Below are positions 2,425 through 3,911 of a stretch of DNA of 64,000 nucleotides, one piece after another. Under the pieces are notes generated by a model. It saw only the letters and a program-made list of their open reading frames with translations, was not told the DNA's origin and did not search any database. Every line of letters begins with the position of its first letter. Within the stretch, counting starts at the first letter, position 1. The stretch is taken from positions 1 to 64,000 of the forward strand of contig NZ_FRBE01000019.1 of NCBI RefSeq assembly GCF_900142535.1. Direction: 5' to 3'. The position numbers and the translations under genes are program-made. Origin of the DNA: Fibrobacter sp. UWEL. Its GTDB lineage: Bacteria; Fibrobacterota; Fibrobacteria; Fibrobacterales; Fibrobacteraceae.

Positions 2425-2456
2425 ATTGGATTGGACGGGGAACTTTTCTACATTTT
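2425..2456 (+). promoter_or_regulatory. Bacteroidota-like promoter of the riboswitch-transporter operon
   Basis: ATTG at 2425-2428 and TACATTTT at 2449-2456 are separated by 20 nt, matching the TTTG-N~19-TAnnTTTG pattern known from Bacteroidota. A start a few bases downstream would place the 5' end of the transcript right before the aptamer at 2465. Confidence 0.45.
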
Positions 2457-2464
2457 ACGTAAAC

Positions 2465-2498
2465 AGAAGTCATTGTCTAACCTTCTTTAAAAAACAAC
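2465..2498 (+). promoter_or_regulatory. preQ1-I-type riboswitch aptamer
   Basis: The segment matches the compact class I preQ1 aptamer position by position. P1 is AGAAG (2465-2469) pairing with CTTCT (2482-2486). The loop is 12 nt and ends in a C at 2481, the position that recognises preQ1 in this class. The A-rich tail TTAAAAAACAAC follows. TTG in the loop (2473-2475) can pair with CAA (2495-2497) to form the pseudoknot P2. The tail ends 4 nt before the ATG at 2503 and no separate Shine-Dalgarno sequence exists, so ligand binding would most simply control translation start. The downstream gene is a YhhQ/VUT-type transporter, the expected target. Confidence 0.8.
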
Positions 2499-2502
2499 TA
2501 TT

Positions 2503-3252
2503 ATGATTGAAAAGATTAAGTACGAGGTGAAAGACCTCGTTGTTCTCCTGAGGAACATCCCCTCTCTCGCAGTCACCTTCTTCGTCCTTTCTGTGGTGTG
2601 CATGAACTTGCTCGCCAACAAGGAGCTATTCTCCACAGAATATCTGGCCCTGGATTGCGGCTTTACCTTGAGCTGGTTCTCTTTCCTTTGCATGGACATG
2701 ATATGCAAACGGTTCGGGCCTAAGGCTGCCATGAAGGTTTCCATGGTGGCGCTGTTCATCAACTTGGTTACCTGCGGCCTCTTCGCGCTCCTTTCCCGCA
2801 CGCCCGGCATGTGGGGCGAATTCTACAGCTACATCGATTCCAATCCCGATGCGGCAAGCGTTGCCAACGCCTCGCTGAACGCAACCTTTGGCGGATCCTG
2901 GTATGTGGTGCTGGGCTCCGCCCTGGCCATGTTCACGTCCTCCGGTGTCAATTCCATTGTGAACTATTTGATTGCGAAGACAACCAAGACGACGGGTTTC
3001 AAGAATTTTGCTCTCCGCTCCTACGTTTCTACCGCGGTAGCCCAGTTTGTGGACAACTTCATTTTCGCCATGGTGGTAAGCCACGTATTCTTTGGCTGGA
3101 CTATGACCCAGGTGATTGTCTGCTCCATTACAGGTTCCATCATGGAACTGCTTTGCGAAATCGTCATTAGTCCTATTGGCTACAAGATGGTGTGCAGCTG
3201 GGAAAAGCATGACGTAGGTCGTGAATACTTGAACATGAAGGCTGGAAAATGA
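2503..3252 (+). CDS. VUT/YhhQ-family transporter, probable queuosine precursor importer
   Basis: This 249-residue integral membrane protein has about six hydrophobic segments. It resembles the VUT (YhhQ, DUF165) family, whose characterised members import queuosine precursors such as preQ0/preQ1. The membrane-embedded AQFVDNFIF near residue 185 corresponds to the family's conserved Q-x-x-D motif, and the end KMVCSWEKHD fits the family's cytoplasmic tail. A preQ1-I-type aptamer lies in its 5' leader, which independently supports a queuosine-precursor substrate. The gene overlaps the following dehydrogenase gene by 4 bp (ATGA), so the two are co-translated. The exact substrate (preQ0, preQ1, queuine or queuosine) cannot be read from sequence. 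Confidence 0.85.
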   Translation: MIEKIKYEVKDLVVLLRNIPSLAVTFFVLSVVCMNLLANKELFSTEYLALDCGFTLSWFSFLCMDMICKRFGPKAAMKVSMVALFINLVTCGLFALLSRTPGMWGEFYSYIDSNPDAASVANASLNATFGGSWYVVLGSALAMFTSSGVNSIVNYLIAKTTKTTGFKNFALRSYVSTAVAQFVDNFIFAMVVSHVFFGWTMTQVIVCSITGSIMELLCEIVISPIGYKMVCSWEKHDVGREYLNMKAGK

Positions 3253-3911
3253 ATGTCCTGATCAGTGGAACTAGCCAGGGGATTGGTCGCGCCATTGCGG
3301 AACTGTTCCTGAAGAACGGCTTTAAGGTTTTTGGCGTCGACGTTCAGGAATCCTCCATCCACCATCCTGAATATTTTCATTTCGTTGCAGACGTTTCGAA
3401 TAAGTCGTCCCTGCCCGAAATAGAACAGACCATGGACATCGTGATTAGTAACGCAGGCGTCCAGGATTCCGGTCGTGACATCGAAATCAATCTGAAGGGC
3501 TCCATCAATTTTGTGGAGAAGTATGCCTTCCAGAGTTCCATCAAGTCTGTTCTGCTGGTAGCTTCTGCTTCGGCTCATTCCGGCGCGGAATTTCCGGAAT
3601 ATTCCGCCTCTAAGGGCGGGCTTCTTTCCTACATGAAGAATGCCGCTATTCGCCTCGCGAAGTTTGGCGCTACCTGCAATAGTATTTCGCCGGGTGGCGT
3701 CACTACCGAATTGAACCGCCCTGTTATGGACGATGCAAAATTGTGGCAGCGCATTATGGATGTGACGCCTTTAAAACGCTGGGCATCTCCCGAAGATATA
3801 GCCCAGTGGGTTTACTTCCTCACGGTCGTAAACAAGAACTGCACCGGTCAGGATATTCTTATCGATAACGGCGAGAATGATTTGAATTCCACCTTCGTGT
3901 GGCCAGAATAA
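3249..3911 (+). CDS. short-chain dehydrogenase/reductase (SDR)
   Basis: This 220-residue classical SDR has the Rossmann motif GTSQGIG at 7-13, an acidic Asp31 at the end of the second strand (suggesting NAD(H) rather than NADP(H)), NAG at 68-70, Asn81, Ser106/108 and the catalytic pair Tyr118/Lys122 in YSASK. It is slightly short for the family because the substrate loop is trimmed. Its start overlaps the transporter stop by 4 bp, so it shares the preQ1-type leader. That linkage hints at a role with the imported compound, but the substrate is unknown and SDRs are too versatile to assign. A general sugar or alcohol dehydrogenase remains possible. Confidence 0.85.
   Translation: MNVLISGTSQGIGRAIAELFLKNGFKVFGVDVQESSIHHPEYFHFVADVSNKSSLPEIEQTMDIVISNAGVQDSGRDIEINLKGSINFVEKYAFQSSIKSVLLVASASAHSGAEFPEYSASKGGLLSYMKNAAIRLAKFGATCNSISPGGVTTELNRPVMDDAKLWQRIMDVTPLKRWASPEDIAQWVYFLTVVNKNCTGQDILIDNGENDLNSTFVWPE

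Follow-up and report, generated by a model that had tools for sequence, protein, structure and literature searches.

The 34 bases at 2465–2498 on the forward strand of the window, by which we mean the whole 64,000-nt stretch of Fibrobacter sp. UWEL DNA analysed here, can be assigned with high confidence as a type II preQ1 riboswitch of class I in the 5′ leader of the mRNA for a predicted queuosine-precursor transporter. On its architecture, its conservation and its genomic context, the element is very probably a genuine preQ1 riboswitch that had not been listed before, with preQ1 as its presumed ligand. Read directly, the segment runs AGAAG-TCATTGTCTAAC-CTTCT-TTAAAAAA-CAA-C. Its P1 stem comprises five base pairs formed between AGAAG (2465–2469) and CUUCU (2482–2486), which enclose a 12-nt loop, TCATTGTCTAAC (2470–2481, L1/P2/L2), ending in AC. 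The last loop base, C2481, is the expected ligand-reading cytosine; it directly precedes the 3′ strand of P1 and is invariant in relatives. Within the loop, UUG (2473–2475) is complementary to CAA (2495–2497), so that a P2 pseudoknot can form, and between P1 and the 3′ strand of P2 lies the A-rich L3, UUAAAAAA (2487–2494), in which TT is followed by six A (2489–2494) that are likewise invariant in relatives. The CAA strand stands 5 nt before the AUG, and at most 1 nt before it in relatives, and the aptamer as a whole ends 4 nt (0–1 nt in relatives) from the transporter ATG at 2503. The preQ1-I layout that the first-pass annotation had described, with its 5-bp P1, 12-nt loop containing the C, run of six A and TTG/CAA complementarity, is therefore present where it had been placed.

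The subtype follows from published signatures. Type II aptamers carry AC immediately before the 3′ strand of P1 (PMC11625349), which is found here as A2480 and C2481, whereas in place of the type I signature (UU following the 5′ strand, UC preceding the 3′ strand; PMC11625349) the element has UC and AC respectively. Type III features, namely a short pyrimidine-rich loop and an AAGG Shine-Dalgarno sequence within P2, are absent, the loop being of 12 nt and mixed composition and the tail reading CAA. With the type II riboswitches of B. subtilis queC and T. tengcongensis (RF00522) the element shares the 5-bp P1, the 12-nt loop with AC, the A-rich L3 and the predicted H-type pseudoknot P2. It differs from them in occurring in Fibrobacterota, in scoring below the Rfam threshold, in controlling a COG1738 transporter, and in abutting the AUG without a Shine-Dalgarno sequence and without a terminator; the type II targets named in the preQ1 review are queT and que operons.

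A strict scan for this architecture on both strands of the window returned 2465–2498 as the only site. The same scan found no match among 30 × 64 kb generated by a Markov model of the window's composition, and five among 30 × 64 kb (1.9 Mb) of sequence with the AT-rich composition of the leader, a chance expectation of about 5e-4 per 190-nt leader. At gathering thresholds no Rfam family matched anywhere in the 64-kb window. In a relaxed search of 4227 families against the 501 nt around the element, RF00522 matched end to end at 2460–2503 (20.4 bits, E = 0.093), so that the covariance-model search suggested in the first-pass annotation did yield the expected family, but well short of its gathering score of 39 bits. 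That score is a curation threshold rather than a structural feature, and none of the leaders tested from this lineage or from the transporter's kin reached it (best 26.6 bits). Overlapping matches to DdR14 and BTnc060 were set aside as chance, being far below their own thresholds with E values of about 3.

Orthologues of the transporter occur in 13 genomes of the same genus, with 76–77% protein identity to the window copy, and in F. intestinalis ATCC 43854 (68%), and the motif is present in every readable transporter leader from these genomes. Of its 34 bases, 30–32 are identical between the window and the relatives, compared with 74–75% of the transporter coding DNA, while the flanks outside the motif cannot be aligned. 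P1 is 100% paired in the five distinct transporter leaders, and the single pair that varies, the first, is compensated, being A-U in the window and G-C in the relatives; P2 can pair in all of them, and its letters are invariant and hence without covariation. Conservation of P1/P2 pairing, which had been proposed as a check, thus holds throughout the relatives, with one compensatory change. Because covariation of the type II element by itself is weak, with one varying pair in five distinct sequences, the weight of the case lies on conservation and genomic context. All matches of a covariance model built from the transporter leaders (R1), which fall in 14 of 101 genomes, are to transporter leaders; the window sequence was used to build this model, so that the window's own match is not independent.

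Beyond the genus, no recognisable aptamer was found in the printed leaders of three distant transporter homologues (G021, G026 and G041; 28–30% identity), and the leaders of Bacteroidales transporters, the nearest outgroup, also lack the motif. Transporter orthologues from Bacillota and Coriobacteriia have preQ1-I-like leaders of type I, whereas in Olsenella and Tractidigestivibacter the transporter leaders look type II-like by eye, with UCC/GGA and CCC/GGG pseudoknots. The CCC/GGG form is seen in L149, L150, L151, L153, L155–L157, L177, L186 and L189, and Coriobacteriia related to these two genera have type I transporter leaders. Different lineages therefore place this transporter family under different preQ1-I subtypes. 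As a separate observation, a DUF805b RNA motif match in F. intestinalis (L128:1050–1084, minus strand) scored 24.1 bits against a gathering threshold of 35.6.

Our scan of the 3.5-Mb genome to which the window belongs with RF00522 gave two best matches, at 25.1 and 21.5 bits, which lie directly before queF-queC and directly before queD-queE respectively. Pfam matches support the downstream genes as QueF, a QueC homologue and QueD/PTPS, the QueE-like product being a radical SAM protein. Both leaders are of type I by the published signature, and the three preQ1 riboswitches of this genome very probably together cover the genes for queuosine synthesis and import. The remaining RF00522 matches in the genome (L003–L008) were dropped, as they fell in coding DNA or a tRNA region or had no queuosine gene downstream. 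With a covariance model built on the type I leaders (R2), strong copies appear ahead of queF, queC(DE) or queD(E) in those genomes of the genus that produce the precursors, and none in the genomes with the transporter only. P1 of these leaders shows covariation above all of 500 shuffles, the type I signature is present in most queF, queC and queD leaders of the genus, and the leaders end in CUAGGAG, whose GG is able to pair with a conserved CC of the loop, an arrangement resembling that of known type I switches which bury the first Shine-Dalgarno bases. Weak R2 matches elsewhere in the phylum, outside this family (E 0.005–0.05), were taken as chance, the three that were opened having no adjacent queuosine gene, and a joint alignment of Fibrobacter with Clostridia and Coriobacteriia type I leaders (A4) was misaligned and left out.

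Several variants of the regulon were also seen. In the queF leaders L040, L041, L042 and L043, GC replaces UC before the 3′ strand of P1 with the rest intact, and the queF leader of G020 (L099) has lost the P1 hairpin but retains the tail with CTAGGAG, a natural loss of the switch. A second QueD-like gene, which follows a QueE-like gene and has no riboswitch, occurs in the genome of the window (L110, G000:C2:2000–3400) as well as in L111 and L113, this pair being common to some close relatives; it serves perhaps in 7-deazaguanine DNA modification. Two full-length TGT genes are present in the same genome (G000:C27:1773–2846 and G000:C14:64028–65101), as in most Fibrobacter genomes checked, G026 having one.

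The gene downstream of the element (2503–3252, forward strand) encodes a predicted 249-aa queuosine-precursor transporter of the VUT/QPTR (COG1738, YhhQ) family. Its match to PF02592 (3e-22) is above the cut-off, whereas that to TIGR00697, the NCBIfam queuosine precursor transporter equivalog, is not (4e-10; 39.8 against 50.95 bits), and no solved structure is similar to it by sequence. It shares with E. coli YhhQ (COG1738) the PF02592 family and the predicted uptake of queuosine precursors but represents a divergent subfamily, co-operonic with a short-chain dehydrogenase (SDR). Its closest orthologues sit in named Fibrobacter genomes, and in the tree the window copy falls inside a Fibrobacter clade that is sister to copies from Bacteroidales. 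Across 61 genomes of the genus, 13 have the transporter only, 37 queF only, 10 neither, and one, that of the window, both (Fisher 2e-6, a value that ignores kinship, the transporter-only genomes being close relatives that represent few independent events). The transporter-only genomes also lack queD and keep QueA; TGT and QueH are likewise retained in those checked. Judged by this gene content, the transporter replaces queF and queD in the genus outside the window's genome, which strengthens the transporter assignment made in the first-pass annotation. By the published logic that reads the imported base from the set of que genes (PMC5372724), preQ1 would be the expected import in the transporter-only genomes, because preQ0 is unusable without QueF and queuine needs no QueA; preQ1, and not preQ0 as for E. 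coli YhhQ, is thus the probable useful substrate. None of eight genomes closely related to the window's own figures among the transporter matches listed, none has a closely matching SDR (best matches ≤38% identity), and in the six whose cysS locus is intact, the resemblance to the window ends just upstream of cysS. The window's genome therefore possesses both routes either by gain or by retention.

That the motif is an accident of an AT-rich leader, whose 5-bp hairpin, run of A and three possible pseudoknot pairs happen to coincide without function, is extremely improbable. The motif is short, its Rfam score is below threshold and sequence of the leader's composition does produce the architecture five times in 1.9 Mb, but chance would not be expected to leave 88–94% identity in the leaders of orthologues between unalignable flanks and coding DNA at 74–75%, to compensate a P1 pair among relatives, or to supply the same genome with sister elements on queF-queC and queD-queE. 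Somewhat less remote, though still very unlikely, is a leader derived from preQ1-I that now responds to a different 7-deazaguanine, either preQ0 or queuine, or is no longer under ligand control. E. coli YhhQ prefers preQ0 (PMC5372724), discrimination against preQ0 by the type II Tte riboswitch is only 17-fold (PMC10622847), and the window's genome makes preQ1 itself; the recognition positions are nevertheless all kept, preQ0 would be a dead end in the transporter-only relatives without QueF, and these relatives keep QueA, so that queuine is not their expected import.

We therefore retain preQ1, the ligand already implied by the first-pass annotation, as the probable one and propose that, when abundant, it would dock in the loop, be read by C2481 and stabilise both the UUG/CAA pairing of P2 and the contacts by which the A-rich L3 packs against P1. 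The folded aptamer would most likely block the access of ribosomes to the A-rich region and the start codon and so reduce the production of both the transporter and the SDR encoded by the overlapping gene, while scarcity of preQ1 would open the leader and raise import. Blocked access is favoured because the aptamer lies only 4 nt from the AUG in a leader that has neither room for a terminator nor a Shine-Dalgarno sequence, and control would be repressive rather than activating and exerted on translation. Co-transcriptional pausing or altered RNA stability could take the place of blocked initiation, and this we consider unlikely but deserving of appreciable weight, given that elemental pausing has been reported for preQ1-I aptamers (PMC11625349) and that there is no Shine-Dalgarno sequence in the window leader to hide; the proximity of the aptamer to the AUG, closer still in relatives, is ideal for blocking initiation, however, and the leader cannot house a terminator. 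The preferred reading as a whole, a preQ1 riboswitch on a queuosine-precursor importer, meets one counterpoint in the genome of the window, which makes its own preQ1 and so does not need the transporter for salvage alone.

Upstream of the aptamer is a candidate Bacteroidota-type promoter (2426–2456, forward strand), which consists of TTGG (2426–2429), a 19-nt spacer and TACATTTT (2449–2456), ending 8 nt before P1. An exact TAnnTTTG lies within 45 nt upstream of the aptamer in 18 of 37 queF/queD leaders of relatives, compared with 1.1 expected from shuffles, and because of this enrichment a Bacteroidota-type promoter is likely for the queuosine regulon. The first-pass annotation had called such a promoter here, a call that holds only in part, the window copy being imperfect in that TACATTTT is not a perfect TAnnTTTG; the 64-kb window as a whole shows no enrichment of TAnnTTTG.

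An additional structural variation concerns the type I leaders, which in 24 genomes out of 168 from the phylum (22 Fibrobacter and two of a second family) carry an extra ~15–45 bases directly after the 3′ strand of P1 (leaders L045, L046, L048, L051, L057, L058, L061, L062, L096, L097, L100–L103 and L242–L265). The insert is a hairpin with a base of UAGG/CCUA, UGGG/CCCA, CGGG/CCCG or UAGA/UCUA, shows two-sided changes at three of its five base pairs, a level reached in 3 of 500 shuffles, and is followed by an intact A-rich L3 and pseudoknot. Insert-bearing leaders precede queF in the Fibrobacter genomes examined and in G061; in G062 such a leader precedes a 46-aa open frame ended by the contig edge, which looks by eye like a queuosine-precursor transporter and matches no family model. 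We found no description of an inserted preQ1-I hairpin in the preQ1 review or the literature searched (the survey of McCown et al., 2014, excepted), and this covarying hairpin between P1 and L3 is possibly an undescribed preQ1-I architecture.

The SDR gene (3249–3911, forward strand; PF13561, 2e-25) overlaps the transporter stop codon through ATGA and is presumed to be co-regulated with it. Of 74 loci (L116–L189) spanning Fibrobacterota, Bacteroidales, Bacillota and Coriobacteriia, 69 have the same SDR directly after the transporter, with 47–73% identity in the loci inspected, and three of the five loci without it are interrupted by contig ends. The protein has, by eye, a nucleotide-binding motif and YxxxK but matches no curated equivalog family, and a lead from the literature on YgfF, an SDR with a supposed connection to queuosine, turned out to have no bearing. 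From the linkage we would guess at a role in queuosine-precursor salvage; that transporter and SDR constitute a conserved module for salvage, controlled by preQ1-I switches in three phyla, in which the SDR performs an unrecognised salvage step, is a tentative proposal to which we give slightly less than even chances.

Control of yhhQ/COG1738 genes by preQ1 riboswitches is known from other bacteria (PMC5372724, PMC11625349). The type III riboswitches of gammaproteobacterial yhhQ share with the window element the COG1738/YhhQ target family and a presumably translational mode of action but have a short pyrimidine-rich loop and fully bury their Shine-Dalgarno sequence, neither of which applies here. 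Type I, by comparison, serves queF, queC and queD in Fibrobacter, and in Bacillota and Coriobacteriia it precedes genes of the transporter family found here. The preQ1-riboswitch literature searched, the main survey of McCown et al. (2014) excepted, does not name Fibrobacterota among its phyla. Of the two extensions originally claimed for the element, that of taxonomic range consequently stands, while the connection between switch and transporter was already established (PMC5372724, PMC11625349). The riboswitch class and its link to COG1738 transporters are thus not new, and what is added is a Fibrobacter regulon with two subtypes.

Taken together, these leaders describe a whole preQ1 regulon in Fibrobacter that the standard Rfam threshold misses. 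With type I on the synthesis operons and type II on the importer, the reported difference between one-ligand and two-ligand binding could be compared within one cell. The inserted covarying hairpin and the constant SDR partner are testable new leads, more novel than the window element itself. Rumen relatives that have lost synthesis while retaining TGT, QueA, QueH and an importer under riboswitch control resemble preQ1 scavengers, and these putative scavengers live side by side with members of their genus that make preQ1.
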